DNA from: Psococerastis gibbosa
Lineage: Eukaryota > Arthropoda > Insecta > Psocodea > Psocidae
DNA length: 64,000 bases
Assembly: GCA_963971405.1 (NCBI GenBank)
Contig: OZ020485.1
Coordinates: 2,356,001 to 2,420,000 of the forward strand
Direction of reading: 5' to 3'
The notes under the pieces were generated by a model that saw nothing but the letters and a program-made list of their open reading frames with translations, ran no database searches and was not told where the DNA came from. Shown here piece by piece: positions 28,189 to 50,119 of this stretch (position 1 is the stretch's first letter; each line of letters starts with the position of its first letter). The translations under genes were made by a program, and so were the position numbers.

Positions 28189-28439
28189 AGATAAATTATA
28201 GTTTTCCAAACGTTGCAAGCTGCCAGAAATTGTAGGTAAATTGTACAGTACAAGAACAGTATTTATTATTAGTGAGAGGCGCTTGCAGTGTGGTCCATTG
28301 AACGTTGCCCTGCCAACGACCCCATCGGCATCCGGAGATTATTGGTATTGTTTCCCAATGATTTTATAGCTGTTGGCAAACTGGTTCACACCGACTAAAA
28401 ATGCCATCGGGGAAGCTGAATGAATGAATGAGCGTGTAT

Positions 28440-28768
28440 TGAACAAATAAAAAAACCATTTATACACAATAATTGTAAGGCCCCACTAGTAGACTATACC
28501 TTACAATTTTCTCTGCCCTAAAACAAAAGAATAAAAAATAAATAAAAAATACAAACTATTAAGCTAAACTTGCATATTAATATCAAATCTGTCATAAACA
28601 CATAACAGATTATTCCTGATAAGGATTCCACCTCTTCCCGTCTCATCAGCCGTTCCCGGACGAATTTGGAAAATGTATTTATTGCCAGAGACCCAGGACA
28701 AATATCAAGTACGTTAAATAATTTTGGTGCTATATATTGGTAGGATTTGGTAAAAGTTGGTATGTATC
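28440..28768 (-). pseudogene. LINE reverse transcriptase C-terminal fragment plus 3' end
   Basis: On the - strand from 28768 it reads TFTKSYQYIAPKLFNVL, then FSKFVRERLMRREEVES, the C-terminal tail pattern of non-LTR reverse transcriptases (APKLFNxL...F.KF.R..L). The same fragment occurs on the + strand at 54430-54600. A hAT-like element at 28777 separates it from sequence that may be its upstream part. Confidence 0.65.
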
Positions 28769-28776
28769 CTCTAGGT

Positions 28777-29047
28777 CAGCGTTTCTCAACCTTTTTTATC
28801 TCACGGCACACTAACTGACAATCAAATTTACTTACGGCACACTATGTTATTATCATTTCATTACATTCAGTTAGGCAAAACTAGAAAATAGTTATACATG
28901 GTATGTTTACTAGGTTGAACAAATAAAAAACTCCTTGTTCGTGGCAAAACAAATATTAAGATTTAAAAACGCATTTTACCGGTCGTAACTGATGTCACAA
29001 AATGTTCGTCTTTTTTTGCGGCACATAACACCGGTTGAGAAGCGCTG
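28777..29047 (+). mobile_element. hAT MITE, CAGCGTTTCTCAACC type
   Basis: The left end CAGCGTTTCTCAACCTTTTT and right end GGTTGAGAAGCGCTG form a 15-bp terminal inverted repeat with one mismatch. CGGCACAC follows near the left end and GCGGCACA precedes the right end. The flanking duplications are CTCTAGGT (28769-28776) and CTCTAGCT (29048-29055), 7 of 8 identical. This end sequence is well known from animal hAT elements. Confidence 0.92.
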
Positions 29048-29059
29048 CTCTAGCTACTT

Positions 29060-30630
29060 CAAAGTGTTCAATTATTCTAGTATTTGCTGGTCTGGGTCTC
29101 TGTACCATGTCGCCGCTGATGGAGTAAAAAATTCGCAAGGTCTTGTATAAGAACAAGTGCCCAGCGGGAATAAGTGGAGAGGCGCAAGCTCAGACATGCT
29201 TACCATTGAGGTTGTAACAGCAGGTGTCAGTCTCGTCGAAAGCAATAAGGACAGCAATTCTGTAGTTCATTATTGTAACAGGTTTTATTGCAATGTTTTT
29301 TATCTATACGGGGCCCATAGTTGGCTGTCTGATTTAACTAACTAACTTATTATAATAATTACAATATTTAAACGTAGGTTTAGGTACCTAAATACTCACG
29401 TACAATAAGTTATTGTAGTATTGAGTTTACAATAGCTGGTTGTACCGTTGCACTGGTGCTTTCTCCAAAACGACTTTTCCAATGCTATGGTATTTATTGC
29501 CAAAACTTGACCACAGGGTGCTTTGTTGGTCGTTTAAGGCGGTGCTCACAATGGTCATCCAGTGTGTTTGTTCCGGCCTGGTTCCTCCCGAGAAAGTATC
29601 GCGGCAGTCAGGCAAACAGCTCGCCATCGGCAGTGGCACTGGACAACAACGGTCAAAAGGCCCCGCCAAATTTAAATCGAGTGGAACTGTGCATTGCTTT
29701 CTTCGGTTTGTGTTGACGAGCGCACCATACAGATGTGATACACGCATAGTCGAGCTTGCCATTGTGTACATAACCATTTTTCCGTTTACCATCGTCATAG
29801 GTAGGTAATGCTTAGTTGAATTTCTGTAAATGAGGTATAAAACTAGTCACACCCAACCGCGGCTCGAACCTGGTTTACCCGGGCGAGCGTTTGGTACTGG
29901 CACATGGGATCGGCGATCTGCCCACTAGGTGTACATTGACTGCATTTATTTTTTATTTATTTAGATTGAAAATTTATAAATGAACATAACTCTCGTCTAG
30001 TTAATAAACAGTACCTTAGTGATTGGAAAGTTATTCGGTTATAGCAAGGTAACACACTAATAACACGGCTTTATTATGGGTATACCGGCCTACTACTGCA
30101 TGTGTGCTGGTGAAGCTTGAAGGCTTCTACGTCCACTCTATTGCAATAGACTGGATTGATGGATCGGATTGGTGTAGTGTGTGAGCCCCTTTAGAACAAC
30201 TCATGGTGCGTGGAAAGTTAATCGATTAGCAAGCAAGGTCGTAGAGGTACCTAGGTACTGCTTACTGTGTGTGTGGTGAAACCTGTGTGCGGTCAGACGC
30301 ATCGTCTTGGAAAATGCACACTACCCGGCAGCCATTCTTAATTTAACAGAGCAAAAAATAATAAGGCAAATACAGCAGCTATATACAGGTTCTCTTTATT
30401 CCGTAATATGCACAGTTGTAATTCCTGTACAGACCGACTGTGAACATTCGGCTGTGTGCAGCCTGCAGCCTGCTTGATTGCAAATAATATCGTGAATGCT
30501 GCGGACTGCGGCTGGTACCCAAGTTGTGGGGAAAACATACCCTCGAATTTTTTTTTTTTTACTTTTTTGTGTATTTATACGCAATAAATTAAAGAATTAG
30601 TATATTCAAGTTGTGTAAGACGATTTCACA
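29060..30630. other. Unassigned sequence
   Basis: The interval 29427-29808 is open for more than 120 codons on both strands and ends at a donor-like ATAG|GTAGGT on the + strand. There is no ATG at the start of the + frame and no recognisable domain. A poly-T run is at about 30548. Confidence 0.35.
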
Positions 30631-30633
30631 CAT

Positions 30634-30940
30634 TTAAAATGGGTTAGTTGGACTTACGTTGCCTGCTGTGTAAACAGTCATTAAAGACAGGGGCCTCACA
30701 GTCATCCAACAATTAGGGTTGAGCCCATTGTCAGGGGAAGAGCAATAAGTTAATCGTCCAGAAACTATCAGTCCTTGTCAGAACTTAGCCTGGTGATGGA
30801 AGCAGCAACCACACCACTCCCGAAACGTCACCATTTCCCCTGACAATTGCTCCGCCTTAATCGTTCGATGACTGTGAGGCCCTGCCTCTAATGACTATTC
30901 AAACCGTAGGCAATGTAAGTTCAACTAACCCTTTGTTAAA
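30634..30940. mobile_element. Element with about 105-bp terminal inverted repeats
   Basis: The left arm TTTAAAATGGGTTAGTTGGA and the right arm (complement TTTAACAAAGGGTTAGTTGA) continue through 'gtcatta.ag.caggg', GCCTCACAGTCATC and 'ttgtcaggggaa'. The centre contains CCTGGTGATGGAAG followed by CTCCCGAAACGTCACC, which resembles a hammerhead-ribozyme core with A6 replaced by G. Confidence 0.7.
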
Positions 30941-30944
30941 TTTT

Positions 30945-31440
30945 TGGCGTTGTAATGATTTCATGAACATTACTGTGGACTAAAATTTCTCGCAATTCCT
31001 GGCCACACCGAAAATTAAAAATACCCTAAGATACGTAGGCCTATTATTAATTAAATAGTCCACGACGATTGCAACTTAATATATATATTGAATGTTAAAT
31101 ACTTGCGTGGTAAATCACTTCAAAAATATAAACTGCCTAATGCAGGGCCAGGGGTGATCCAGGGATGGCTAATAACTACGTTTCACATCACAACAAACTA
31201 TAGGCTAACATACCAATCACTAATCAATAAAATAATTAAATATATATTTATGTTAAATTAAACAATCAAGTAATCAATAAGTCCCAGTACCTAACAAACA
31301 AGAATTGTATTGGATAAAGCATTCATTGCCTTTATGCAATAAAGTAAGCTCACGTTCTCATGTTCGGTTAGATAGTTGTGTAGTTGTGCTAGCCTGTCTA
31401 GCAACACGAATCATGTCAATTAGAGCATTAGTAGAGGATT
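30945..31440. other. Unassigned AT-rich sequence
   Basis: No gene or repeat boundary is recognised. Confidence 0.35.
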
Positions 31441-31461
31441 TGGCGATTACTGAACTTGTCG

Positions 31462-31534
31462 GGGCTTGTGGTGCAGCGGTTAAGACGACGCCCCAGTTAG
31501 GCGTAGATCGTGGGTTCGAATCCCGCCAAGCCCG
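31462..31534 (+). tRNA. tRNA-like head of SINE-3 (tRNA pseudogene)
   Basis: The acceptor stem GGGCTTG / CAAGCCC is perfect, the anticodon stem ACGCC / GGCGT is perfect with loop CCAGTTA, and the T arm is GTGGG-TTCGAAT-CCCGC. The A box (TGGTGCAGCGG) and B box (GGTTCGAATCC) are intact, and T6 follows immediately, as a Pol III terminator would. The D arm does not pair properly and position 33 is C rather than T, so this is a SINE promoter head rather than a working tRNA. If read literally the anticodon is AGT (Thr). Confidence 0.7.
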
Positions 31535-31645
31535 GTTTTTTCCATATCCTCTAATTTCGTTTATAACGAGGAGGTTACCTCTTCAACCAAAGTTAATTTG
31601 ATGTCAGTGTTATATATACCATATAATACTACAATGTATTAAACT
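31535..31645 (+). mobile_element. SINE-3 body downstream of the tRNA-like head
   Basis: 'ccatatcctctaatttcgtt', 'ataacgaggaggttacctct' and 'tatataccatataatactac' are shared with 27768-27872. The start of the body is also recognisable, inverted, near 48255-48300. Confidence 0.7.
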
Positions 31646-31649
31646 GTAC

Positions 31650-32715
31650 CTATACAGGATTCCTCTAAGACAGGGCTAAACCATTTCGGGTCTAGAATCT
31701 TGGTCGACCTTGGCCCAAAAAAGAAGGCCCGACCACCTCATTGATGAGATATAAATGTAATACATACGAACGTACGTACACAACACCCAGTTCTTTGCGA
31801 CCTCTAAATGTAAACAAACGAGGTGGCAAGTACGCATCGCGGGGACCTTCAGAAAGAGAGAGAATGGCGGTTAGCCAATGGAACAGTCTGCATGACACAT
31901 TATGAGGATGACTCGATTATTTCACGTGTCACTTTATTATATACAGGCTAATAGTATGCACACAGACCCATTGGTATCACAGCAGATCAACTGGGCGACG
32001 GCCGACAGAGCCTAGGCTACAGCTAGGCAGGGCAATGTGCCACAACCCGATTGGAAATTACAACGGTAGGCAACGGATTCACAGCTCCGAGATTAGCCTA
32101 CGCCGTACAGTGTGCTGTAGCCTGTAGTAGGGAATTCGGGCTGAAATGATAGACTAAGCTTGTAAAAAATTATTATTTCTACAGTCCTAATTGAAGGATT
32201 CCCCCGACCAGCGTTCCACATCAGCCGAAAGAAAAGAAAAGCTACAAAGACATACTAATAAATTGGCAATTTCATGAGTAATATTGCATCCATAAATTTT
32301 GTGATACCAAAATCTTTGTCTGGACAAAATTTCAGCTTAATCGTTGTAGTGGTAGACAAATTGTTATTCCAAGCGTTCCCTGTGTGGCAGAAGGTATGTG
32401 AGTATGAGAAGCGCTGCTCCTGCTGTTAGCATCAATAAAGAGGATGTGAAGAAACAGGCTATAGTCAGGTAAGACTAAGTACATACACGGACAACATTGA
32501 GGAAGCAGTGAAATTGCCATTTGCAAAATCACGAACCAATGCAATGCAATAGGATCCCATTAAATAGTAAATAATATCGACATTCCGCAGGATGGTTGTA
32601 CGTGCACGATTGACGATTGTCTACGTGCTCCTCCGCGTACTGCTACCAACGTCCACAGGCTCAGCAAATACTATAAAATGTCACACAAATACAGTCGATA
32701 ATCCTCAAAGCGAAA
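31650..32715. other. Unassigned sequence
   Basis: No gene, RNA or repeat boundary is recognised. Confidence 0.35.
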
Positions 32716-32724
32716 ATCGGAAGA

Positions 32725-32865
32725 AAAAGTATCGGTACGAATGAACCCGTTCTTGCTTTCTTTCCAGCAGTTATCGTTATAATAACCGATTTACCGACAG
32801 GCAGATATTTCGTAAAAAAACACTATTTTCGGTTCCTAGGACCTCAAAACGTGAAATCACAATCC
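32725..32865 (-). mobile_element. Family A2 fragment
   Basis: 'tatcggtacgaatgaacccg', 'ttgctttctttcc' is an A2 right end in reverse. After a gap come 'cagatatttcgtaaaaaaac' and 'ggttcctaggacctcaaaac'. Confidence 0.55.
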
Positions 32866-33725
32866 GATAAGGAGGACTGGTAGAAGGATTCTCTTGCTCT
32901 GCTCTATTTGTGATGTTATGGTCAGCAACAGCCGTGACACTAATTAAGTCCGTTTCTCTTATAACTGCAATTTAGACCTTTGCTGCCGGGGACATTATCT
33001 TTGACAACACCGAAGTGGACTGCAAATGTCGTAGGAGCTTCAGCATAGAAAAATTTGGAGATACGGCCCATTTGAACCTTGGTCTTGCGTGCGTGCCTGC
33101 ATGGGTCTAGGGCAGTGGCCGCATGCAGTTTGGGGAGACAATGCCTTGTGGAGTGATTCACAAGACAAGTGCGGTCGCAGTCGGTGCGGAAGTCCGAACA
33201 ATGGACGTCTCAGTGGGCGGATGGAATGCAAATGGCCTCTAGGAGACCGGCTTGGCTGAGGCCGGCCACTTACCGGTACTTGCACCTAATTTGTACATGA
33301 TATTCTGATAACACATACCTACTGATATGTACAGTATGCCACTGCAGACAGCCAGGGGGGCATTACTAGATCTTAATCATCAATTGGATTTTGATGTTTA
33401 AAAAGGGGGTCACATGACAGTAGAACGTGACGTCATGTGCCCAGAATAGAGAACAATATAGGAGAATTACTCTATTATTAGTATAAGTTTGTAGCAAAAT
33501 CAAAACTTTACTGCCGTTAAAATGCGTAAAATCCCACTCTCTCGCCTACATTTTTCAAACATGTCCCCCATAGGACAGACCCCAGGACCCCCTCTTTGGG
33601 GGCAGTGTGACAATTTCCATAAAATGTAAACCGTCGTAATTGTGACATGATTTAGTTGTTGTTATTTAGGACTACCTACATAGTATCCGCACCAAAGTCC
33701 GCCACTGGACTCTTATCTGTACTTG
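32866..33725. other. Unassigned sequence with a GC-rich patch and a family B module
   Basis: 33040-33290 is GC-rich and open on both strands with no recognised domain. 33510-33600 is a reverse family B module ('aaaatgcgtaaaatcccact', 'gaccccaggaccccct'). Confidence 0.4.
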
Positions 33726-33729
33726 TTGT

Positions 33730-34535
33730 TTTCCAATTTATACGTAGGAAAGCTTTGTGATGGTCGAAATGTTCGATTCCGAGATTTCAACGGATTTACA
33801 CGTTTTGAGGTCCCAGGAACCAAAAAAAGGGGTTTTTACGAAATGTCTGTCTGTCGCTCTGTCTGTTCATCGTTTTCCGGGGAAACAACTCGGTCGATTT
33901 GTTTGACATTTGGTATGTAGGTTCACAAAAATTATACCTCGGGACAATTTTTTTTTATTTGGAGCTAGCTCAATTTGGGGGGGGGGGGTTTATTCTCAAA
34001 AAACTCCAAAAAAATTATTTCTCAAAAACGGCTCCAACGATTTCTTTTAAATTCACATATATTGTAGTCGTCATTAATGTATACAAATTGCAGGGGGTCG
34101 CTTGCCCCTTGATAGTTTGGTTCTGGGGGAAAGAAATAAAAATTACTAAATTTTAAGGAAAATTTACTAGAAAGTAGATATTCTGCAAAACCTTCCTATC
34201 AATGATTTCTACCTTCAGGAATGTTTTAGGTGTTAAATTGAGTGTCGAAACCGGACAGGTGTCTATTTTCTATAAACTATTTGGTTTTGTGCAATTTTTT
34301 TTTTTTTAATGATTGAAAATTCTCACTGAAATGCATTGTGTTGTGTTGGTCTGACCTATTCAGAATTAACCTCACATCCAGTGACGTCAGGTGGACAACC
34401 CCCCCCCCCCCCCCCGAGATATCCGAAATTTAACCATAGGAAAATTTTTAATTTTTACTAGGAAATTACTCATCTTCTCCATGTACTAATTGATAAATTG
34501 GAAAGCATGTTCGAGTAAACTCGGACCGGTTCGTT
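33730..34535 (+). mobile_element. Family A1 repeat, full-length forward copy
   Basis: Runs from TTTTCCAATTTATACGTAGG to 'ggaaagcatgttcgagtaaa', CTCGGACCGGTTC. The GTCT microsatellite is at about 33846-33865 and a C18 tract at about 34399-34415. The layout is the same as the 13803 copy. Confidence 0.8.
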
Positions 34536-34735
34536 AATAAGCCATACTGTCGCTTGTTTCATTGCATTAATGGTAAGCGTGTCTCAGCTTGTCCATTATC
34601 GCTAGTTGCCGGTATAGGTTGACATCATAGAGGACGTATAGCGTTTGCCATTGGTCCAAAATTCGTACGGAAACAAGACAAATAATGTCCATGAGGTTTT
34701 TGGAATTGGACAAGGTATAAGTATATATAAGTATA

Positions 34736-34760
34736 TCTATATATATATATATATATATAA
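34736..34760. repeat. (TA)n microsatellite
   Basis: Uninterrupted TA dinucleotides visible in the sequence. Confidence 0.9.
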
Positions 34761-34944
34761 ATGTTCTGTCCGTTTGTGTACGCTTCAAAAACTGAAAAAG
34801 TTCTGCACCGATCGAAATTTTAGGATGATATATAATCCGCATCAAGGATTGTTTTTATCTAAGTTTTGCACATCAGTCACATATCCGCGACCGCGAAAAA
34901 AAAAGCGAGGAAAATACTCTCTGACAACCGCAATAGTAATGATG

Positions 34945-35045
34945 CAGTCAAATGGGAGCCCCGAAGGGGCGAGGTGCGTAATGCCGAAAGCGAGGCCCCG
35001 AAAGGGCGAGCTGCCGGGGTGGAGGCAGCAGCCTGAGCCTGCTGC
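34945..35045 (+). other. GC-rich cluster of GAAA/GAA-loop hairpins
   Basis: Three consecutive motifs, GCCCCGAAGGGGCGAGG, TGCCGAAAGCGAGG and GCCCCGAAAGGGCGAGC, each combine a short GC stem, a GAA/GAAA loop and a trailing CGAG. They are followed by GGCAGCAGCCTGAGCCTGCT. Composition differs sharply from the surrounding DNA. Function is unknown. Confidence 0.5.
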
Positions 35046-35639
35046 GGGAACCGCTTGTAATACATAAAATTACATATATAAGCTATAAGTAGCCACCGGT
35101 CCATAAAAAATCTTTCAAAAATTAAAAGTCCGGCACTGTTTACATTGACATTTGATGCGCCAATGCTCTAACATACGAGTAATATGATAACTTGTACCCC
35201 CTTATCCTGGCTGCGGCGGCCTAGACCTGCACATTGAGGTAAGTAACTTTTAATCGCATAACATTGCCATCTCTTCATTTCAAGTGTCTGTCCTCTATCA
35301 CAGCAACTCTATTCGAATACCTGTTGTGCCTATTTAGAGGGCGAGAAGAAATAGGTTGTCATCAAGGCAGCAGATCTTTGTTTGGGCGTCGTTTCTTCTG
35401 CTTTAAAAGGCTATGAATGAATGAGCGAGGTGAAAGGGATGCTGGCTCAAGGCACAGCAGGTTCTCTATTTGTACCTGCGTACCTGTACTCCATTGTCTG
35501 CGCCTTTACCAATTTCTCCATGCTTTCTGCCCATTCGTGACTATAGCTTAGTTGTAGATGAAGAAAGAATTAAACCATTGATAAATTCCATTTAGCTGAA
35601 AAGTAATATAGTAAGCATAGTACATTTGGTTTGCCGAGT

Positions 35640-36385
35640 TATTGCTTTCCTATTTATATGTTAGTATATAGCTTTTCTATTTATACGTGAGTACGTATGT
35701 GACCTACGAAATTTATGATTTCGAGATTTCAGTGAGGACCCAGGAACCCTAAAAATTGCTTTTTAATAAATGTCGGTGGGTCCGTTCGTCGATTAATGGG
35801 TTTTGATGAAATTTGGCTTGTAGGTTTGCAAAAATCATTTCTCGGGACTTACCACCCAAAAACTTCTTAAAAACGACTTAAAATTGTTCTCAACTCAAAA
35901 ACGGCTCGAACGATTTTTCCCTTAAAGTCACAATATATTATAGTTGTTGTTAATGTAAACAAATCCCAATAGCTCCTTGATAGTTAAGCTCAAAAAAATA
36001 AAAATAACTCAATTCTCGTGAAAAATGACTAAAAATAATTTATTATATTTATCGATGGTTTCTAACTTGAGGTATAAAATAAAGAACAAAACAGAACAGC
36101 TTGTTTCACATGCCAAGTTTTGGTTTTGAATGTATTCCGGATAATTCATTCCCCAATACATTGCATACTCTGCCATTATTACTGTGTTGATAGTAATAGT
36201 AATAGAGTATGCAATCGTCCCATCAGTGCTTTGGGTTAGGGAAAGTAAAGGCAACAGAAATTTAGCAATGTAGAATTATTCATCATGGAACTACTCATAC
36301 CTATATGATCTGTCTGGGTACCTATACTAATAATATGTAAATAGGAAAGCATATAGGGGATCCACTCGTACCGGTTCTTTTTTTT
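35640..36385 (+). mobile_element. Family A2 repeat, near full-length forward copy
   Basis: The left end TTGCTTTCCTATTTATATGT is partly duplicated; the body has 'cgatttttcccttaaagtca' and 'tatgcaatcgtcccatcagt'. It ends 'aggaaagcatataggggatc', CACTCGTACCGGTTCTTT. A2 copies lack the A1 poly-C tract and replace the GTTCGAG hairpin. Confidence 0.7.
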
Positions 36386-36389
36386 ATAG

Positions 36390-37100
36390 CCAAAGGCGTA
36401 TGTAGTTTATTTTGTAAATTGTAATGTGTATAATTTCATTGAGTATCACCTGAACAACAATTGAGGCCAACATCATATAGAGCTGGAGAAATATCGATCT
36501 AAAGAGGCCCGTGCGCTCGAGTTAAGCTGAATGCGCACGCCAAATGCAGTGCCTCAACATTTGGGTCTGTGCGGTCGGTATCCTCCAAGTGAATTTGCTT
36601 GCTCAAAAATACTGAGGCCAAATTCTGTCGCTTAATGACTACCTTAATAATGGTAACGTAATAATATACGGTACTATTTTACGAATTGAATAATTTTATT
36701 TGGCTTCTAATATCATTATTTACTTTTAAAATGGTTTTAGTTGAACTAGTGAAAAAAAATTAGAAGGGATAAATGCACAGTGGTTGGGTGTTTGCTTAGT
36801 ATCTGCGACTTCAAACAGGATTAAAGCTAACACAAAAATCCGGAAGATGTTGTTCATAATTGCCGCATTACTGGCAGTTCTGGTAGGTACACGCATACCT
36901 AATAATTATAAATTCATATGATGGGCCTATGCTACCTATATCACACGCAACTGCATACAGACACAGTAAAGGAGCGAGTGAACGGCTCAAAAATACTGGG
37001 CTTGCATACCTTCCTAATGTTCTAAAAAGAAGGCAATGTGAAAGAAATGCGGAACAAATGCCTCAGGGTACGTCTCCTGTCTGCAAGTCTGCGGAAGTGT
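36390..37100. other. 3' flank of the nested gene
   Basis: Presumed 3' UTR and downstream region of the - strand gene; AATAAA on the - strand lies at 36700-36695. Nothing else is recognised. Confidence 0.4.
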
Positions 37101-37105
37101 AGAGC

Positions 37106-40100
37106 TCACATGTAGCCCGAACTTGCCTCTGACACCCAGGGTTCATGCTCCGCAGGAATACTTCCATCTGCTCCTCGGTATTTCCCATTGGATTTACTCC
37201 TAAAAGATAAATTACTTAAGATGCAACAATATCATCTGACAATAAATCAGAATTCATAATTGACCAAAATTTTTGAGAGTTAGATGGCGATGTCATTCGG
37301 TTCTCTTTGGCAATAACGTATAATCGGCATGTTATGTTGGCATGTTGGGATTACGTCATATATCCAAATCACATCACTCTGACTGCTGAAACGGGAATCT
37401 CCAATCTGCAATTATAATATTTTTTATTTAAAATTTCCTTAGGTACATACGGACGATTTGGCACGCGCAAGTTGCGGACGTTTTTTTTTACCAATGTAGC
37501 AAATCAACTCTAGAAAATATCTTAATCTGGCGTGAAGCCGACGGCATGCTTCCTCCCCTCGACAGTCGACACGCCCAGAATACGCGTCAACTGCAAAATA
37601 TCATCCGAAGTTCATTGTGGTTTTCAAACTACCGGTACCCATTTGCATCAAAGACAAAAAAACGTCAGCAACCCGCACGTGCCGATTCGCCGTAATTTGA
37701 AGAATCCCTAAATAGTTGTAATTATAATTGAAAACTTACCTTTTTCGATCACTCGCTAAGCTAGCAGACTTTGTCAATTTCTTTCCTATCTTCGTTAAGG
37801 GGCGAGGGCTTGATGTACCAATCTCTTTAAGATCAGAGCCACTGAGATTTTCAACTACCACATCAATATACTGCCGCCCACAATCATCATCTGAATGTTG
37901 TTCAGTTCTTCTACTCCACTTTCGCAGCAAGTTAGGATTGAAATATTTTCTGAAATCGACGGAATGTTTTCTCAAAAAAAAATATACGATAAGGCATATT
38001 ATTATTATTCCAAGAAGAATTATCGCTGCAGTAGTCATGAAGATGTTTTTATGGAGAATAATGAAGTCTTCAATTCTCGTGATTATGGAGCGGGACTCAT
38101 CTACAGCATGATGATGGTGTCTTGCTTGCGATTCAATTTTTTGCTGAGCAGCCACAATATCTTCAATATTGGGCATATCTTTTACTTCTTCATAATTGTC
38201 TGACTCCAATTGGGGTATTGTAAATTTTTCCAAAAAGTTGTAATATTTGTCATCTTCATTGGTAGCTCTCTCCTTCTCCCGAACACGAGCGTAATCATAA
38301 TATTTGCCTTCCTTCTCGGTTGCCTTATCTTTTTCTCTTGCATATTTGTCCTTTATTACCCTTTTTGGCTTCACATATGGTTTTTTACGCGTTTTTCTAA
38401 AGCCTTCAATCAATTCAGCCAATTCATCTAGATCTTCATCAACATCACTAAAAACAATGTCTTCATTAAAGCTTCGAAGACTTTTTAACTTACATTCTTT
38501 ACCTTTGCAAGGTTGTTCTACATTTCGTTTATGCTTACGCGAACGACGATTTGATTTTGATATCTCATTAAACCTTGGGTAGTTTTTTAGTCTTTCAACT
38601 TCCTTTTCAAATAATTCGATTCTTTTAAGGTCATTTTTGGATGACTTCTTAAAATTTTCTGACACTCCTCTCCAAATCTCTTCTTTTATAGCTTCCCCAC
38701 TTTGGGTGGCCAGATCTTCATGAAAAACGTCATGTAATTCGTCATGTAAGTCATCAAGTCTGTCATCCTGTTCGTCTTCATGTTCAAATTTTTCGTGAAT
38801 GTCTTCCTCTTCATTTGCCAATTCAGCGTTAACTTCATCTTCTTCCATATGCTGAGTTATTTCACCGTGAATACCCCCAGGTTCTAATTTTTTATGGTAT
38901 TTCTCATCCAACTCTTCCTTTGATGCTTCTTGTAAATCTTCACGTATATTGTCATTTATCTCTTCACGGAGCTTTTCATCCAAATCGTTCATATACTTCT
39001 CTTCTTCACGAAGTTTTTGATTAAATTCTTCTGATGGAACAGTGAGCTCTATAGCACCATTATCAAAATTTTCATCAGTCTTTTTCAAAGACTTTTTGTT
39101 CCAGTTTCCGTTATGAGCTTTTGATCCTAGCCGCAATCTTTCCTCCTCCGCAGCTGCTGCTTCTAATCTCTCCAGGCTTTCCTCGTGTGCGTCCAGCTCA
39201 ATGTTGTCATGAATAGCTTTATGAATACTCAATGCAGCATTCGAAGAAAGAATTAAGTTGAGAACCTTTGGTTGAATTACCATTGACTCTTCTCTTTCAG
39301 GATTTAATTGAGATTGTTCAGTTAGTGTATCGTGATAGAGAACCTCTTCCTTTTCTCCGCTAAAGCCTAGTTTTTTGCTCAACCAGCTAAATAATCTTCC
39401 AAATGTAGATTTAGATTTATTTTCTTCCACATCATCTTTTTCATGCTCTTCACTTTTATTGTTGCAATACTTCATAATTGCCGAATGGACAGGTTTACGG
39501 CCTACGTTCAAGAAGTATTGAAAAATTGATTCTAATCTTTTCTCGTGATGAATGTATAGTCTACAAATGGCTGGTATTCTTTTATTGAAGAATTTTTTCA
39601 CTGGATGCCAAAATCTGGGTGGGTGTTCAGCAATTTCTTCAGTTACTTCAGTATATTCATAATGTGGATGAGGCCTATGGTTATGTTGGTGATGGAGATG
39701 ACGGCGGCGTGTGGGTTCAACACTTAATAACTTCCCTGACTCTTCTGGCTGGTCTTCGTGAGCCTCGGAGTCAGAATCGTCTGCGACAGATTTTGATGCC
39801 ATATGGTCCAAATCCTCATGAATAATATTTTCATTTACTTTTTGACTATAATCCCTACCAGGTCGGACATCGCCTTCACGATCGGAAACCATCTCCCACT
39901 TAGACCTCCTTAAAACTCTGCTGTCTTCAATCTGGTTTTTACGCTCATTCAAATATAATATTGTGCTATCGTCTCCTAAATAATCTTCTGCTGCCTTTTC
40001 ATTATTCAGTGTAAAACTTATTTCATTTTTTAGTGGCATGCTTCTTCTTTCTGATCCGGCTGAGTGTCCACTATCAGTATCAGCATTAATTGTTGGGCTA

Positions 40101-41325
40101 CCGTTTCCAGACGTAACTGCGGTTCTTTTTACATCCCTATTTTCCTCATTTTGTTCTTCTTCTCCTCTACAACTTGTTGGCCAATGTCTGGTATTCCTCA
40201 GTGGTTGCCCTATTTCGCGAAAAAATTCTTTATTTCCAGACTGACCTCCCTGGGTTTGAAGCTTAGTTAGATTTTTTCTTCTCTTTTGCTTATTAATTTG
40301 ATTAGCTGCTCGAGAATTGCTAACACATTCAATTATCTGCAAGAAACATGTACTTAAAATACATTTGACACTTCAGTGTTAAGGAAGAAACAGAACAATG
40401 TGGAGCGTTCAAATACCCAATGTAAAACGAATAATTGCAATAGGCTATAAGGCATTACGGTATTTGGAAATCTCTGCTGCTCTGTAAAGTCTTATGAGGA
40501 ATTTCAAGACCGTGTAGCAAATAAATATTTTATCGCTCTTAATTATTTTATTTAATATTATAATAAATATTCTATTTTATTAATTTTATTTGAGGAACTT
40601 GACCGGGATATTTTTAGGATAAATTCGAGTCCTACACTTCCTAAATTTTCTGGCCATGCTTCGGAGGGCATGTAAACCAGGCGGTCCCGGTCCTTCCTAG
40701 TTGAGTGTAAGAGAGGGCTTTATTGCCCTAACTCCGCTAGGTTGGCTTAGTAATAGATCAAGAAAGTCCTTATTTATTTATTTACCATTTGAGACTATAG
40801 TCATATATTGTACTAGTAATTATCAGTAGAGTATGACTAAAGTACTAAAGTAACAAGCGCAATTTCTTTTTTGATCACATACAGGCTGCTGAAACCGAGC
40901 GATAATTACATGTATACATGGGTACATGTACGTAGATGTAGCCTCCTTAATTTACAGTACATTACTGTACAGTCTGCCTTGTCCAGATTTTTTCTGATTC
41001 CCTATTTTTAGATATGAATAAATAAATAAATAAATCTTGACTTTTTGTTGTTCTATTACTAAGCCAACCTAGCGGAGTTAGGGCTATAAAGCCCTCTCTT
41101 ACACTCAACTAGGATGACCCGGGAGCGCCTGCTTCACATGCCCTCCGAAGGAGTGTTTAAACTAAAGTAAAGTAAGTAGGAATGCTGCTTGCAAATTCAC
41201 TCTCGAGTTAAGCCTGATACATACAGTACATTACAATATACACATACAGTACAGACTACAGCCAGTACAGGAAGTAAACGTACCATTATAAAAACTGCGA
41301 GAATTATAAGGGCACTTCTCCGCAT
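37106..41325 (-). CDS. Uncharacterised single-pass membrane protein, three exons, 910 aa
   Basis: Exons on the - strand are 41325-41284 (42 nt), 40336-37740 (2597 nt) and 37199-37106 (94 nt), 2733 nt in total including TGA. The start ATG at 41325 follows an in-frame TGA 12 codons upstream. Exon 1 encodes MRRSALIILAVFIM and ends in phase 0 at GTACGT. Exon 2 follows tttcttgcag, opens in phase 0 and ends in phase 2 at GTAAGT. Exon 3 follows ttatcttttag and completes an Arg codon. Residues 1 to about 24 look like a signal peptide. A His-rich patch lies at 224-239, a compact hydrophobic/aromatic segment at 253-305, very Glu/Asp/Lys-rich helical sequence at about 397-572, a basic cluster RRSRKHKR at 611-618 (possible convertase site), CKGKEC at 624-629 and HHHH at 754-757. 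A transmembrane helix spans about 781-801, then a 109-residue cytosolic tail ends SSGYM. No family is recognised. The gene lies antisense inside the LPMO intron. TTTATT at 36695-36700 is a candidate poly(A) signal. Confidence 0.85.
37200..37739 (-). other. Intron 2 of the nested membrane-protein gene
   Basis: Bounded by GTAAGT (37739 downward) and a pyrimidine-rich ttatcttttag acceptor ending at 37200. Apart from splice signals I see no repeat or RNA feature in its roughly 540 bases. A different frame of exon 3 is also open for about 45 codons, but only the phase set by the upstream exon joins the two. Confidence 0.6.
40640..40760 (+). mobile_element. SINE-1 fragment in intron 1 of the nested gene
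   Basis: 'ggccatgcttcggagggcat', 'cttcctagttgagtgtaaga', CTAACTCCGCTAGGTTGGCT. Body only, no tRNA head. Confidence 0.75.
41040..41165 (-). mobile_element. SINE-1 fragment, opposite orientation, same intron
   Basis: AAGCCAACCTAGCGGAGTTA, 'aagccctctcttacactcaa', 'cttcacatgccctccgaag'. It forms an inverted pair with the copy at 40640-40760. Confidence 0.75.
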
Positions 41326-41664
41326 TACCAAAGTATCTACAGTGTGAAATGCAGTGGTTCAATTATAAAAATAAAATAAACTTTAAAAACAGAAAAATAA
41401 TAATAAATAAGCGGTAGAAAATCATAAATACAAGGCGACCACTTGAATAATAAAGCGACAGAATGTAAACTAAGTACCGTACCTACTTACTGGTTGATAA
41501 TTTTTATGAATTCGCATAAGCTGATGTTGAAGTCTCCATGGGAATTTGGATGTGTCAAAAATTATATCTGGGTCCCAGATCCCATAGTATCACACAATAT
41601 CGTTGCTAGGCTGTCCTTTGTTTCAGTTTCAGTCAGGTTTCAGGCCTTGAATTCCCATTACTTT

Positions 41665-41850
41665 TTTTTGTTTTAATTATTTTTAAAAGAGATTATTCGC
41701 ATGCAAACAATTCAATGATTGTATTCGAATAACCTCTTCAGTCGCCTCTGTATAGGTAGTTCCTGTGATGAGTTACGACAGGTCGCCGACCGCATGTTGT
41801 GTAGAGACTAGCCCGAGTATGAACAAGCTACCACTATGCCATCCAACACC
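41665..41850 (-). mobile_element. SINE-2, second copy
   Basis: 'tttttaaaagagattattcg', 'aacaattcaatgattgtatt', 'aataacctcttcagtcgcct', 'gagttacgacaggtcgccga' match 24205-24340 in order. Confidence 0.7.
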
Positions 41851-42177
41851 TTTAGTACAATCCATTAATTTAATAATACAATTTTGTTAGTTAAGAACTC
41901 TATTAAACTATGCAATATAAAAGTGTATTTCCGGCTGGGTGGTTGTAGTGTAGACTACTACTGTAGTACATCCCGGCGCTGGGCCGGTCCATGTCAGCAC
42001 CAGGCAGTGTTGTACAGCAGACCACACCAAACTTCATCAGGGGTTGTAGAGGTCGATGTAGCCTGGGGGGGGGGGGGGGGCCTTTGCATTCCCACCTAGC
42101 TACCAACTCAATGCTATCTATAGACATTAGACATTCATATAAATAATGATAATACAGTAATTAATATTTGTGACATT

Positions 42178-42365
42178 CAGGACATGCAGAGCAGTGGTAC
42201 TGACTCCGACTTTCACCCGATAGGTTGTTGGTTGGAGTCCCACACTTGCTACGTTTTTTGGCAATACTTTGGAGGGCATGTAAAGTAGGTGGTCCCGGGC
42301 TTTCCTAGTTGAGAGTAAGAGAGGGCTTTAGAGCCCTAACTCCGCTAGGTTGGCTTGGTAATATA
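42178..42365 (+). mobile_element. SINE-1 with tRNA-derived head
   Basis: The head ACATGCAGAGCAGTGGTACT contains an A-box-like stretch, and GTTGGTTGGAGTCCCACAC is the B-box region (canonical GGTTCGAGTCC with one change). The body follows: 'ggagggcatgtaaagtaggt', 'gagggctttagagccctaac', CTCCGCTAGGTTGGCTTGGT. This is the most complete SINE-1 head in the window. Confidence 0.75.
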
Positions 42366-42589
42366 AGAGAAAGTCAATATTTATTTATTGACAAGCACTT
42401 TGAGAAAGGTAGAAAGAAAATTGTCTTTATATTGTGGGCTCTCTTACAATCAATGGGAACGTCAACCTGGAAAAAAATAGTCAACATACTTTACAATATA
42501 CTGTGTATGACCAAAAATGTACAACATAGAACTATAAAGTATTAAGCAGTTAAAAATATACATGTGTCTCATGAGAGGCTGAGGGGCGC

Positions 42590-43013
42590 CCCTTCCATAA
42601 TGCAAATACATAAAGCCCCGCGCTTTTATAGAAACTCACTATTTTACGCCTATTAATTTAAGAAAAAAAAAAAATCCCCCTTGGAAGACCCCCGGGCCCC
42701 CATCTTTGCAGCTGCGTTATTCGCCTGTAAAATCTAAACGTTATTGCTATCGAAATGCGTAAAACCCCACTATTTCAGTCCTTTTCAAAACATTTTCCCG
42801 GGGAAGACCCCCTGTTCCCCTTACTGTCTCCCGAACCCTTGGGCGCCGGTGCAAAGGACACCAAGCTCATATTTTTAATTGCGTACGTCCTTGAGAAGGC
42901 TTTGCCATTTCCCTACATTTCTATAAAACGGGGGGGGGGGGGCAGATGATTCATATGATTACCATGATAACGCCCCCCCCCTATATACCGGTTACGCCAC
43001 TGCTGTGTGGTAT
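42590..43013 (-). mobile_element. hAT-like MITE, family B
   Basis: Contains two reverse family B modules (GCGTAAAACCCCACTATTTC, 'ccggggaagaccccc') and a G13 tract at about 42930. It ends CCGGTTACGCCACTG, a hAT-like terminus. The left terminus and target duplication are not clear. Confidence 0.6.
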
Positions 43014-43264
43014 AGCCGGTACAGGTATAGTTAGTACAGTATAAAGACTGTGTGTACGAGCGAGCCATAACGTTATCCGGTAGCGGTGTGTATTTTCTTA
43101 TGGGCGATGAACCATCACTCTGATTTGCATAACGTTAGGCGGTAATTCCGTGACCGTACAACGTCGCTATAGGGATCCCATATTGGACAGTTCATAGCCA
43201 TATGCAGCTGCGACTTCGTTCGATGAATGGACATTGAGTTTTAGACTGGTGTTTGGGAAAACTA

Positions 43265-43480
43265 AAAGAGCCGGTCCGAGTTTACTCGAACATGCTTTTC
43301 TATTTGATCAATTAGTAGATAGATAATATGAGTAATTTCATGCTAAATAATTTTCCTATAGTTAAATTTTGGATCCCTCGATGTCCCCATGACCGTAGCC
43401 AGATTGGGGGGGGGGGGGGGGGTTCATCTGACATCCCTGAATGTGAGGTAACTTCATAATATTTTAAAATCCTTAAAACT
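43265..43480 (-). mobile_element. Family A1 right-end fragment
   Basis: AGAGCCGGTCCGAGTTTACT, 'cgaacatgcttttctatttg' and 'catgctaaataattttccta', then a MITE-like CCGTAGCCAGATTGGGGGG that replaces the usual poly-C position. Confidence 0.65.
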
Positions 43481-43499
43481 CGCTCCATTGTATATAGTG

Positions 43500-44085
43500 T
43501 ACGCTGCAAACATTGGGGGGGGGGGGGGGATGGGCCCGGATCAGTTCAGGATCTTGGATTTTTATTACTGGGGCGCCAATAAGGTGCATAAATGAAATGG
43601 CCTTTCTCTGTCAAGTAGTGGTAAAGAATTGGGGCAGCACTACTGGCAGGGGGGGGGGGGCTAGAGTCCATGCCGTAGCCGGAATTTTTTTTTGGGGGGT
43701 CTGGTTTTCATGCAACATCAATACATAAATTTTGCCCAATTACGATGGGCTTTCGAAGGGGGCAGTGTTTCATTTGGCACTTCCCCACCCGCGATTTTTT
43801 AAAATATTACAAAAATATAGAAAAGCCGTTCTTATGGACTAATTAGGGGCATGATTTTAATTTCCCTTGCCCAGGCCGAAGGGGGGCCCGGCGGTTTCCC
43901 CCGGGGAAAGTTTCTTAAAATATAGGCCTGAAATGGTTTACCGGCAAAAAAATGATTTTGGAGACGATAACTTTATTAACATGGAAACAGGTGTCCATTT
44001 CGGGGGGGGGGGGGGGGGGGGTCCAGACCCAGCTGCGGAAAAAAAAGTTTTTCCTACCAGTATTTTAAATGTTTACTTGTAGCTG
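43500..44085 (+). mobile_element. Family B-related poly-G modules
   Basis: G-tracts at about 43515, 43652 and 44001 sit in modules shared with 60290-61005: 'gatgggctttcgaaggggg', 'aggggggcccggcggtttcc', 'ataggcctgaaatggtt' and 'gacgataactttattaacat'. The two loci look like copies of one composite element. Confidence 0.6.
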
Positions 44086-44099
44086 CAATTGTAGGTATC

Positions 44100-44785
44100 T
44101 CCCATCTTTACGGAGCATATCCTATCAACAACGAATATTTTTCTGTTCACGCATTAGACTTTCGAATTTAACAGGATAAATCACGCATGAATGCCCTATT
44201 TTAATATTTAATATTTCTTTACAGTGCTGGTGGATAAATAGGCTAAAGTACAAAATCTGCAAATGCTAAGTTATGCAACTGTGTTGTATATAGTCCAGAT
44301 CCGGAAATTCGTGCCTTTCCCAATGGATTTGACTTGATAATTCACCCTTGACCCTAGATACCTAGTCCCAATGTACCTACATAAAGGCGAAGTTATCTTT
44401 TAAAAATCAAGATTTACGGTACCTATTATTTTTCGCCTATTTATTCAAATTCTCCCTCCCTGGGGGATATCCTCTGGCTCCCCTGCTTGCAGTTACATAT
44501 ACTTACATAATAATTATATTAATAACTTTCTTCTATAATCTAAAGTTTTTTTTCGGTGTCAAAAATTGATAACAATGATTATGTTCACGCAAGAGGCTTT
44601 CAAAATGAATTTGATAGACAACGCATGGATGCCCTATTTTATTATTTAATATTTTTTTAACATTGTTATTTGCTGGTGGATGAAATTAACTGGCTAAAAT
44701 TATAAAAACTGCAAGTGTTTAGTTATGCAATCGTGTTGTATACAGTCCAGATGTGAAGATTCATGTTATATCATTATCATAAATT
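44100..44785 (+). repeat. Diverged direct duplication, two units of about 430-450 bp
   Basis: Unit 1 (about 44140-44300) and unit 2 (about 44580-44760) share 'tgttcacgca', 'gaatgccctatttta/ggatgccctatttta', 'gctggtggat', 'ttagttatgcaa.tgtgttgtata' and 'agtccagat'. The spacing is about 440 bp. Confidence 0.6.
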
Positions 44786-44789
44786 AAAT

Positions 44790-45880
44790 AATTATATCCT
44801 CCATCATGCACAACTGCATGAGATCATCGACAGGTCACTTTATCAGGGAGAACGAGTTCTAATTGAAAATAATCAAGTCAATTTAATTGTTATGCAACTT
44901 GACAAGGGTAACCAATAAACTCAAAGAAATCCAGCAAATTTGGAGCAGCCTATAACTCAAAAAAGAAAACCGCTTTGGGTATTTCGTTGACCCTTGAAAA
45001 CAATTTCATGACAACTTTTCACAAAATAAATTTCAGAAATGTGGTTTGAATATCGTAAGCCGCTAATAGATACCCCGTTAATGCCGCGTATATAGTCTAC
45101 GATATAATATAATTATTAACAATATAATTCATTTTCCAAAAGCATCATATACTTTATTTTACTTTTTAGTGATATTTGTAGCCTACCTAATTTTAAATTA
45201 AATATAGAATTTTTTACATTAATTTAATATTTATTATTATTATTTTAAATTGTTGCGCAAAAAATCAATGAAGTCATCATATTAAATTGCGGCGACCCCC
45301 CCCCCCCCACCCCACCCTGCCCCAAATAAAAATTCGGCTGAGCCCGTCCATACAGTCCAACCGACGGTTCACTGCGGTTTCAAGCCAATCAGATGGCCGT
45401 GATTTCGCGCCAATTCTATTGCATTGAACCGACGAAAACACGCCATTATAGTAAACCTAATATATTAATTATCAATTAATTAAGTCGGTTTGCAAACTTT
45501 TTACTTAACTAGGAGGCTTCGTATGTCGCATACTTCCACCTTGAACCCAAAACAAAGCAATAATAGCGATTAATATTGAAGAAAACTGGAATTTAAAAAT
45601 TACCGGATAACGTTATGGCAGGCTGGTGCTACGCGTGTCCGCCTAGCGTTATGGCCCGCCCGTATAGGTGTATACTGTATGTGTAGGTGCATTAATGTAT
45701 TGTAGGCTGTGTATGACACACACCGACACAATAGGTCATGAGATCCAAGGTCAGCCAGCCTTCTTTCTGATTCATCCACAATTGCATAGGCGACACATAT
45801 CCTACCTAATAATACTGATGTAGTCATATACAATATACGCTCGCTACCTTCTGGTAAAGTGGAAAAACGCAGTTAAAATG
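44790..45880. other. Unassigned AT-rich sequence
   Basis: A poly-C tract is near 45297. No gene is recognised. Confidence 0.35.
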
Positions 45881-45884
45881 TAGA

Positions 45885-46135
45885 GAACCGGTCCGAGTTT
45901 ACTCGAACATGCTTTCCAATTTATCAATTAGTACATGGAGAAGATGAGTAATTTCATAGTAAAAATTTTTCCTATGGTTAAATTTCGGATATCTCGGGGG
46001 GGGGGGGGGGGGGGAGGGCGTTGTCCACCTGACGTCACTGGATGTGAGGTTAATTCTGAACAGGTTAGACCAACACAACACAATGCATTTCAGTGAGAAT
46101 TTTCTATCATTAAAAAAAAAAAAAAATTCCAGCCC
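45885..46135 (-). mobile_element. Family A1 right-end fragment
   Basis: AGAACCGGTCCGAGTTTACT to 'cagtgagaattttctatcat' with the G-tract before GTCCACCTGACGTCACTGGA. It breaks off at a poly-A run, followed directly by another family A copy in the same orientation. Confidence 0.75.
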
Positions 46136-46151
46136 ATAATAGCCCATAATA

Positions 46152-47218
46152 AAAAGAACCGGTCCGAGTTTATTCGAACATGGAGCTTTCCAATTTATCA
46201 ATTAGTAGATAGAGAAAATGAGTAATTTCATGGTAAATAATTTTCCTATGGTTAAATTTCCTATATCTCGGGGGGGGGGGGGGGGTTGTCCACCTGAAGT
46301 CACTCGTCACTGGTGGTGAGGTAAATTCTAGATAGGTCAAACCAACACATTACCACACAGCAATACTGGCAGGGCACGCAATCCATTAGCGTGAATTTTC
46401 TATCATTTTTTCAAAAAAACATTTTTTTGTACAAAAACAAATACTTTTTTGGGAAAGCAACCTGTCCTGTTTCGTTACTCAATTTAACACCTGAAGGTAG
46501 AAATCATCGATAGAAAGGTATCGCAGAAAAATTATTTTTTAGTTATTTTTCCTCAAAATTTAGTAATTTTTATTTTTTTTCCCCCCAGAAGGAAACTATC
46601 AAGGGGCAAGCGACCCCCCGCATTTTATCAATATTAACAACAACTACAATATATGTGGATTTAAAAGAAATCGTTGGAGCCGTTTTTGGGAAATAATTTT
46701 TTTAGACGTTTTTTTGAAGTTTTTTGAAAAAATGGTCCCGAGGTATGATTTTTGTGAACCTACATGCCAAATTGCCGGCCGCCATACCAAGTTGAATCCA
46801 GCGGACCAGAGCAGGTTCAAAGCTGCAGATAAATTGGTCGTGTGCACAGTTCCGGTAGGGAAACATGGTAGGTCTTGTCCTGGTCACCTCCGAACTAATC
46901 GTGTGACTTCACTGTGTTTCCCAAGTGGTTCGGAATCCACTATAATCAGGAGGTCCACTGGAGTCCTATGGGCCCTCACCGTGGCCTGGGACTGTGTCAA
47001 ACCATACTACTACTACATGCCAAATTCCACCCAGATCCACCATGTAGTTTGCCCAGAAATCGACGAACAGACAGACAGACAGACAGACAGACATTTCGTA
47101 AAAACCACTTTTTTGGGTTCCTGGGACCTTAAAACGTGTAAATCCATTGATATCTCGGAATCGAAAATTTTGACCGTCACAAAGCTATCCTTATACTACG
47201 TATAAATTGGAAAGCAAA
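46152..47218 (-). mobile_element. Family A1 repeat, full-length reverse copy with an insertion
   Basis: AGAACCGGTCCGAGTTTATT to 'cttatactacgtataaattg', GAAAGCAA. It is interrupted between 46774 and 47012 by unrelated sequence flanked by a 14-bp duplication. The CAGA microsatellite is at about 47064-47092. Confidence 0.8.
46774..47012 (+). mobile_element. 239-bp insertion with 14-bp target duplication
   Basis: CTACATGCCAAATT occurs at 46760-46773 and again at 47013-47026, exactly bracketing this segment. Other family A copies are continuous here. The segment starts GCCGGCCGCCATACC and ends in a (TAC/ACT) short-repeat tail. The duplication length and tail fit target-primed (LINE-driven) insertion. 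The inserted sequence itself is not recognised. Confidence 0.75.
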
Positions 47219-47224
47219 AATAGA

Positions 47225-48210
47225 ATTAACTATACGTTACTGTAACTAAGTAGAATAGAATGACGCCCGGTTGTGGGGGAGGAACGGCATGGTACACGGT
47301 AAGGTACAGCCGATATAATCTCCCTGACAGCTATTCTTTGAGTGAGTCTTTCACGATAAAAGTAAGCAGTCCCTTTGTTGACAAGAATTGTTTGGTTTCG
47401 CCACACAGGTACGGTACTTTCCTCAGGTTTGGTACCTGTTGGTGTGCTCAGAGTGCGTTGCCCCTACTTTCACATGGGATTTTGGGCGTGTCAGGTTATT
47501 AAATGTCTACGGTGTATGATTAGACCGACATGCGGTCTGGGCTGTACACGTCCGCTCCCCTAACTATCCGGGAAAAAATTAACTGAAAGTAACTCAATAC
47601 CCTGTTGTTGCTTACTTTTTTTTTAATTTTTTAGTGTTTTTTATGAAAGGGAATACCGTATCGCCGCGGCTCAGCCTACTTGGTGAAGTTGGTAGGGGAC
47701 TGGTCTTTGAAACGGAATGTGTTTGCCGTTTGTTGTTACAGTGGAGAAGGGTTGTTCTGTTGATTGGACCATATTGTAATTACTTGGAGACATGTGCAAT
47801 TGTGTAATGTAACTTCCGCCCTTCTCGGTATTGCAGTGCATACATATATTTTGATATTATTCCCATACCATAAACAAGATGAAGGAAAACAGGAAAAAAT
47901 GAGCGAAATGAAACAAGGCAACCATATTTCTAACGTCTTTCGAGCAATTCTTGATATTTCCAACCCATACCTCGTACACGCTGTGTGTCATCTTCAGGGA
48001 ATCACCTGATAATGCATGGGAATAGATATGTAGGCTATAGGGCGTATGTGTGTTTCTATGCTTCATAGAAATTCAACATAATACTTACTGCCATGATATC
48101 AACACTTTTCTGCATATATTATGTTGTAGAGAAAATTATAGCAGTAATATTTTCCACGTTCACTTTGTAATACTTCGCCATAGTAAATGAAGTAAAATAA
48201 CCTTAGTTTC
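47225..48210. other. Unassigned sequence
   Basis: Short open frames only; no repeat boundary or gene is recognised. Confidence 0.35.
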
Positions 48211-48224
48211 ACTAAAATATATTA

Positions 48225-48305
48225 CAAGCGCCCGGTTTCAAGTGGCAATCTCTTCGTTATGCCCGAAATTAGAGGATTTCCAAAAAAAAGCACTTAGCGG
48301 GTTCT
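48225..48305 (-). mobile_element. SINE-3-like fragment
   Basis: The reverse complement contains 'aaatcctctaatttcgggca', 'taacgaagag', matching the start of the SINE-3 body, preceded by a T-run as at 31536. Confidence 0.5.
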
Positions 48306-48315
48306 GCGCCTGTCC

Positions 48316-49508
48316 GGGGCTGCCAGATCCAGCGAAGTTCAAAACCGGATAAATCTCATTTTACCTGTCAATTTTTTTTCGAAAACACCAATTTCAACTA
48401 GTATCAATTTTTTCTGAAACTGCAGTTTTATCAAGTTAATTTTTTTAAATTAAGTGGTTAATGAAAAATGAAAAAACAAAAATTCTATTTTGCGGTATTA
48501 ATTATAACTAAATATTATATATTATACACTATAATTATTATTATGATATTAGCAGTAAATTAAAGAACCGGTCCGAGTTTAATCGAAAATTCCAATTGAT
48601 CAATTAGTAGTTAGAGATAATGAGTTACGTCATAGTAAATAATTTCCCTGTGTTTAAATTTCAAACCCCATCGGGGGGGGGGGGGGGGGGTCCATCTGAC
48701 ATCTACGGAGGTGAGGTAACCTCTAGTCTATATGTATATACTGTATATATATATATATATAAATCCTTAAAACTTCATTCTATCTAGTGTAGTGCATGCA
48801 TTGGAGCGAGAATTTTCTATTTATTTGTTCAAAAAATAATTTTTTTACACAAAACCAAATACTTTTTTGGGAAAGCAACCTGTTCGGTTTTGTAACTCTA
48901 TTTAACACCTAAAACATATCTGAAGGCAGAAATCATCGATAAAAAGTCTCCGTAGAAATTTTTTTTTTTAGTCATTTTTCATGAAAATTGACTTATTTTT
49001 ATTTTGGTTTACCCCCAAAAGAAAACTATCAAGGGGCAAGGGACCCGCGGCATTTCGTTAACATTAATAACGACTACTATATACTGTATGTGAATTTAAA
49101 AGAAATCGTTGGAGCTGTTTTTGAGAAATAATTTTTTTGACGTTTTTTTATTTTATTTTCATGAGATTAAAACCCCCCCAAATTTAAGTTACTCCAAAAT
49201 AAAAATTAATGTTTCCGAGGTATGATTTTTGTAAACGTACACGCCAAATTTCATCAAAATCGACCGAGTAGTTTGCCGGGAAATCGATGAACAGACAGAC
49301 ATTTCGTAAAAACCATATTTTTGGGTTCCTGGGACTTCAAAACGTGTAAATCTGTTGAAATCTCGGAATCGAAAATTTTGACCATCACAAAGCTTTCCTT
49401 ATACTACTACGTATAAATTGGAAAGCAATAAATAGTAGTAAACTTTCAGCCGGAGAAACCATTAAAAAACCGGACTGTCCGGGCGAAAACCGGACATCTG
49501 GCTGCCGT
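48316..49508. mobile_element. Outer element split by a family A copy
   Basis: The left edge GGGGCTGCCAGATCC and right edge GGACATCTGGCTGCCGTG are inverted; 'aaaccggataaat' and 'aaaccggacat' lie just inside. A complete family A1 copy (48564-49427) sits between them. No clear target duplication was found. Confidence 0.5.
48564..49427 (-). mobile_element. Family A1 repeat, full-length reverse copy
   Basis: AGAACCGGTCCGAGTTTAAT to 'ctacgtataaattggaaagc'. It carries a G-tract at 48673-48690, an internal TA microsatellite near 48745, and only two CAGA units, showing length variation of the microsatellite between copies. Confidence 0.8.
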
Positions 49509-49509
49509 G

Positions 49510-50030
49510 CCTATGTGGTGGCCGTCACAACTCCACCACCACATCCAGTTGCATATATTTGGTAATTTGAAGGACCTCCATAACTATAGTGTTACGGCCA
49601 CGCACAATACTACTACAGTACTAATGTCGAAGAACATGAGCTGTTCTGTCAACTATGCCGCTCCGCCATCCGACAGTGTTTGTGGAAGCTGCAACTTTAT
49701 GGCGTTTAAACCTTGTATCTCTGTGACGAGGAGGGGCTGATTGACAGGTCTGGGGGAGGACATGAGCCTACGAGCCATTGTCTGTCACAGCCAACCGAAC
49801 TTTATTTCGCAACCCGCCTCTCGACTGTGTTGGGCTCAGATGTCATCCGTATCAACTCGCGGGTGGGTGCTACAATGGTACAATGGCAAAGGGTTGCATA
49901 GAAGGGTAGATTAGTTTAGATTAGTAATGGGGCGATGCTGCTACTTGAGCTTGGCTCACTTTGACCTTAAAGATCTAGAAAAGAAAGAAAAGAAAGCTTA
50001 GTTTGGGAGGGAAGTGGAGTAATACCTATG
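49510..50030. other. Unassigned sequence
   Basis: No gene or repeat boundary is recognised. Confidence 0.35.
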
Positions 50031-50043
50031 TTATGGTACTAGC

Positions 50044-50112: not shown

Positions 50113-50119
50113 CTACTAG

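Follow-up and report, generated by a model that had tools for sequence, protein, structure and literature searches.

A real-looking gene for a predicted type I membrane protein, nested antisense between two exons of a probable BIM1-like gene of Psococerastis gibbosa

Introduction

Does the minus strand between two widely spaced exons of a gene of the psocid Psococerastis gibbosa hold a protein-coding gene of its own, and, if so, what sort of protein would that gene make? The question was raised by positions 37106-41325 of a 64,000-nucleotide stretch of the genome of this insect (assembly GCA_963971405.1, contig OZ020485.1), hereafter the window, to which all coordinates refer. An earlier note, made from the letters of the sequence, had placed there a 910-residue membrane protein of no recognisable family, encoded antisense within an intron of an LPMO gene.

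A long open frame and its splicing

Exon 2 (37740-40336, minus strand; 2597 nt) encodes the end of the signal peptide, the entire ectodomain, the transmembrane helix and most of the tail, and it was read through 865 codons free of stops, in agreement with the earlier statement that one 2.6-kb exon supplies almost the whole of the 910-residue product. The longest frame in 300 dinucleotide-preserving shuffles of its 2597 bases reached 150 codons (mean 79), and the longest in 300 mononucleotide shuffles 153 codons, while the GC fractions at codon positions 1, 2 and 3 were 0.50, 0.33 and 0.30. The excess of 865 codons over a shuffle maximum of 150, this codon-position bias and the coherent topology of the product described below all speak against an open frame that is decaying or due to chance and yields no product, a reading that we regard as very unlikely.

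The coding part of exon 1 (41284-41325, minus strand; 14 codons, phase 0) provides the ATG and the signal-peptide core MRRSALIILAVFIM, and is separated from exon 2 by intron 1 (40337-41283; 947 bp). Intron 2 (37200-37739; 540 bp) leads to exon 3 (37106-37199), which provides the last 31 residues, the first of their codons being split, and the TGA stop. The claimed three-exon, in-phase structure was confirmed, since both joins (41284/40336 and 37740/37199) kept the phase and yielded a spliced coding length of 2733 nt, corresponding to 910 amino acids plus the stop; the in-frame stop said to precede the ATG was also present, with 11 codons between them. Splice sites were scored with a matrix of generic metazoan frequencies. 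The acceptor of exon 2 (TTTCTTGCAG) ranked at the 98th percentile among 3,526 minus-strand AG sites, and its donor (AAG/GTAAGT) was strong, with a score of 12.1, whereas the donor of exon 1 (ATG/GTACGT) was mediocre (7.7).

As a control for exon 1, all stop-free, phase-0 ATG-to-donor stretches of 8 to 40 codons with a donor score of at least that of exon 1 were collected from both strands of the window, and each of the 27 resulting candidates was fused to the actual beginning of exon 2. Exon 1 gave the highest hydrophobic core of the 27 (3.70; runners-up 3.45 and 2.30), supporting, together with the hydropathy profile, the N-terminal signal peptide of a type I protein that had been claimed. 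The runner-up with 3.45 is an ATG exon at 36847 on the plus strand, reading MLFIIAALLAVL and followed by a GT donor; it lies just beyond the 3' end of the nested gene, on the opposite strand, and may be due to chance. Taken as a whole, the locus is a real-looking protein-coding gene with a well-supported 5' end.

The tail exon is the weakest part of the model. The strength of the exon 2 donor makes splicing at that site likely, and the join to exon 3 keeps the phase, as the earlier note had proposed for a tail ending SSGYM, but the modest acceptor of exon 3 (score 2.3, 95th percentile of the same 3,526 AG sites) was outscored by six others (2.4 to 4.5), two of which reach a stop after one residue, in a scan of the 2 kb that follow exon 2. 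The SSGYM ending is therefore plausible, not established. It is somewhat unlikely, though a good deal less so than a chance frame, that the gene is real and its model wrong at one end, either with a different tail exon or with intron 2 retained, in which case the tail would end in SDRKR: the six better acceptors favor such an error, as does the stop that is met at once when the exon 2 donor is read through, while the percentile of the chosen acceptor and an AATAAA poly(A)-signal candidate (36695-36700, minus strand), 406 nt beyond the end of the stop codon of exon 3, argue for the model as drawn. An error of this kind is compatible with either of the main roles considered in the Discussion, so that its likelihood is not to be added to theirs.

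Topology and composition of the product

Hydropathy above 1.2 (19-residue window) was confined to residues 1-26 and about 769-810, supporting the single transmembrane helix claimed earlier. This helix (37964-38038, minus strand; residues about 781-805) reached a hydropathy of 3.2, was helical in an otherwise poor structural model, and is followed by FLRKHSVDFRKYFNPNLLRKWSRR, with basic residues on its C-terminal side, as in a single-pass type I protein. By the positive-inside rule these residues place the tail in the cytosol, in agreement with the signal peptide. Cleavage of the latter was placed by eye after SNSRA (A24).

Residues 25-780 were 38% charged, with a net charge of -37, 37 His and only five Cys; residues 421-610 alone had a net charge of -29, and the acidic stretch DDLHDELHDVFHEDL has His residues spaced four apart. 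The His-rich patch that had been described was found at residues 227-239 (HLHHQHNHRPHPH; 39662-39700, minus strand), within a window of 8 His in 30 residues, a density matched by 8 of 2000 shuffles and hence only moderately unusual. Two similar, overlapping KEKE-like units (residues 673-696 and 692-715) scored 46, against a best score of 44 in 10 shuffles. Segment 251-350 was net basic and 34% hydrophobic, more so than the adjacent soluble parts, and carried two of the five Cys of the ectodomain, along with several stretches in which the hydrophobic moment was high. N-glycosylation sequons were located at residues 36, 307 and 320 in the ectodomain and at residue 844 in the tail, which also has a YxxPhi-type site (YIDV) and basophilic Ser/Thr sites.

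The basic, cleavage-like cluster of the earlier note was present as RRSRKHKR (38525-38548, minus strand; residues 611-618), a possible proprotein-convertase site, but the strict furin pattern R-X-K/R-R was absent from the entire protein; RKHKR might suit a convertase other than furin. Single-sequence AlphaFold2 predictions had a mean pLDDT of 44.8 for 878 residues, with the transmembrane helix and a helix near residues 450-480 as the best blocks, and of 45.8 for 182 residues around the Cys pair of segment 251-350.

Searches for relatives

The absence of a recognisable family was borne out by the profile searches. No Pfam family scored above its curated cut-off with the full 910 residues or with the open frame (best E 0.16, RSN1_TM, around the transmembrane helix), no NCBIfam family was found with the open frame (best E 0.031, at 12.9 bits versus 516.6 needed), and the best PDB sequence match (E 0.0011) was not credible. 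Three segments run separately through Pfam yielded no credible relative, and the 182-residue piece likewise gave no credible Pfam or PDB match. Two other hits, RNA polymerase beta in the PDB (E 0.25 and 0.048) and DUF6680 in Pfam (E 0.041, under its cut-off and the best for the 182-residue piece), were attributed to chance, given the helical, charged character of the sequence.

The viral_contigs collection was scanned three times and genome_contigs once, each scan being seeded by six exact eight-residue words and thus suited to close relatives only; word matches occurred in 2, 5, 27 and 22 stretches, none of which was confirmed. A tblastn search against phages returned a single row with an E value of 2. 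The GTDB, viral and phage collections comprise viruses, bacteria and archaea; eukaryotic genomes are outside their scope, so these results are silent on insects. Nothing on the gene was found in the literature on nested genes with LPMO, BIM1-like proteins, HRC, nesting in Drosophila and taxonomically restricted genes.

The host gene

The first coding exon of the host gene (27273-27423, plus strand) encodes a signal peptide followed by HVALTYPPARRYDLD and ends at a GT donor. The next exon identified (62397-62467, plus strand; NIRTTLLAGSSFNISWHLAYPHR) was located by a motif taken to be that of an insect family. The two exons are 34,973 bp apart and join in frame, in line with that presumed family, and the product is the start of a secreted protein whose likely mature N terminus, judged by eye, is His. 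The interval was taken as one host intron, in which a further host exon may lie; Pfam searches of three plus-strand frames of 27001-36992 and 41401-61392 (a few joint bases omitted) retrieved no family up to E 0.5. The window's sole Rfam match, to a tRNA model (31462-31534, plus strand; 46.2 bits), also falls in this interval and may be a gene or repeat-derived.

The nested gene lies wholly between the two host exons and on the opposite strand, so the antisense nesting stood, but the identification of the host as an LPMO gene was too strong. The joined host exons (74 residues) matched a single Pfam family, PF20238 (BIM1-like_dom), with E 0.0084 and 17 bits against a curated cut-off of 27, the query being a 74-residue fragment, and a PDB sequence search with 54 host residues gave no matches. 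Because the PF20238 match is below the cut-off, LPMO-like is the fair term, and the host is probably a BIM1-like insect gene. Its product shares a likely mature N-terminal His and this weak match with the X325/BIM1 copper proteins (PMC7924993), but it differs from them in that the match of the 74 residues falls short of the curated threshold. Intronic genes make up about 6% of Drosophila melanogaster genes according to PMC3786989, so that nesting alone is ordinary, and the host and the nested gene need not share a function.

Repeats around the nested gene

An ungapped search for repeats of at least 30 nt between 33 and 47 kb detected one direct pair with a copy on each side of the gene, and several inverted pairs. 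Inside intron 1, the arms 40659-40765 and 41044-41150 are inverted and 92% complementary, and a third copy is located upstream of the gene (42232-42366); the three read as a foldback or short interspersed repeat. Inverted repeats at 33908-34535 and 45885-46772 flank the nested gene about 11-13 kb apart, are up to 99% complementary (over 83 nt) and adjoin G/C runs; they resemble inverted copies from a single repeat family. Elsewhere in the window, two overlapping plus-strand frames at 18261-20209 matched reverse transcriptase (PF00078; E 3.5e-13 and 7.9e-11), one over the first half of the model and the other over the second, and by its look this is a frameshifted LINE-type element. A tandem array with a 124-bp unit (7.8 copies, 87% matches) was present at 57633-58604.

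Discussion

An envelope gene is outlined by a signal peptide, a basic cluster, a C-terminal transmembrane helix and one large exon, and the nested gene fits this outline, stands in repeat-rich surroundings and is bracketed by the direct pair (48 nt, 79% identical, at 33496 and 42729), all of which would suit an envelope-like gene of a retroelement or of a viral integration. LTRs, however, would be far longer than this pair, and the ungapped search of the 33-47 kb region found no direct pair exceeding it in length; the protein has few Cys and no hydrophobic stretch between the basic cluster and the transmembrane helix; Pfam envelope families were absent, and the three scans of viral_contigs, within their reach of close relatives, gave no relative. 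The earlier note had taken a clear match of the 2.6-kb exon to a transposon protein as counting against its own reading; the open frame had no credible Pfam match. With nothing LTR-like and no family match, an envelope origin is unlikely, in our estimate highly so. Even less probable is that the segment before the membrane is a BAR-like domain and hence cytosolic, as might be supposed from phmmer matches to the endophilin-A1 BAR domain (E 0.0011 with residues about 642-773 alone, 0.0064 with the full protein). The same segment matched no Pfam family, BAR included, up to E 10, and a reversed control of the segment hit an unrelated chain at E 0.023, some twenty times weaker but close to that range, while the signal peptide and the positive-inside rule place it outside; on these grounds the endophilin match was set aside.

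The most likely product is a type I membrane protein of an ordinary kind, as yet uncharacterised. Its signal peptide would be removed after A24, and it would enter the secretory pathway as a type I single-pass membrane protein. Roughly 756 residues, acidic, 38% charged and for the most part helical or disordered, would face the lumen or the outside, and a tail of some 105 residues, basic beside the membrane, would lie in the cytosol. Such a protein may act as a membrane-tethered scaffold, its acidic and His clusters binding cations (Ca2+, Zn2+ or Cu2+) or basic partners, and a cut at the RKHKR cluster, if it occurs, would free the N-terminal ~594 residues. This role, suggested by the net charge of -37, the 37 His, the acidic stretch with spaced His and the KEKE-like units, is put forward tentatively, at somewhat less than an even chance. 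The argument for cation binding is one of composition, and the reading as a whole is tempered by several results: the His cluster is no more than moderately unusual, one of the 10 shuffles nears the repeat score, both structure predictions are poor, the exon 1 donor is mediocre beside that of exon 2, and the net basic, more hydrophobic segment 251-350 is not explained by a plain cation buffer. In the histidine-rich calcium-binding protein of the sarcoplasmic reticulum (HRC) and the triadin/junctin group, acidic, His- or KEKE-rich lumenal stretches are thought to bind cations and partners; HRC has no transmembrane helix, and the cytosolic part of triadin is N-terminal. The nested protein, compared with them at the level of a Pfam scan, shares such lumenal stretches; its own plan combines a signal peptide with a cytosolic tail at the C terminus.

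The protein may instead be a type I adhesion, signalling or matrix-anchoring receptor, in which the Cys-bearing basic segment 251-350 would be the part that binds, the acidic stretches would serve as spacers and the tail would signal inside the cell, a possibility to which we give a little less credence than to the scaffold. The hydrophobicity, Cys pair and high-moment stretches of the segment are consistent with such a receptor, as are the YIDV site, the basophilic sites and the SSGYM ending of the tail, whereas the poor model of the 182-residue piece and its lack of credible matches count against it. A precedent is 2mit of Drosophila (PMC3786989), which lies in an intron of timeless2 in opposite orientation, as the nested gene does in its host, and encodes a putative transmembrane receptor with disordered regions, to which the nested protein can be likened. 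The same source describes 2mit as carrying leucine-rich repeats, in contrast to the nested protein, in which no Pfam domain was found, and as seemingly without functional relation to timeless2.

As it stands, the locus adds a further gene to those of uncharacterised membrane proteins. Should the three-exon model hold, annotation limited to the large exon would miss the signal peptide, and a membrane protein of the secretory pathway would be taken for a cytosolic protein. Should orthologues share the host intron, the host and the nested gene would become testable for shared metal regulation.
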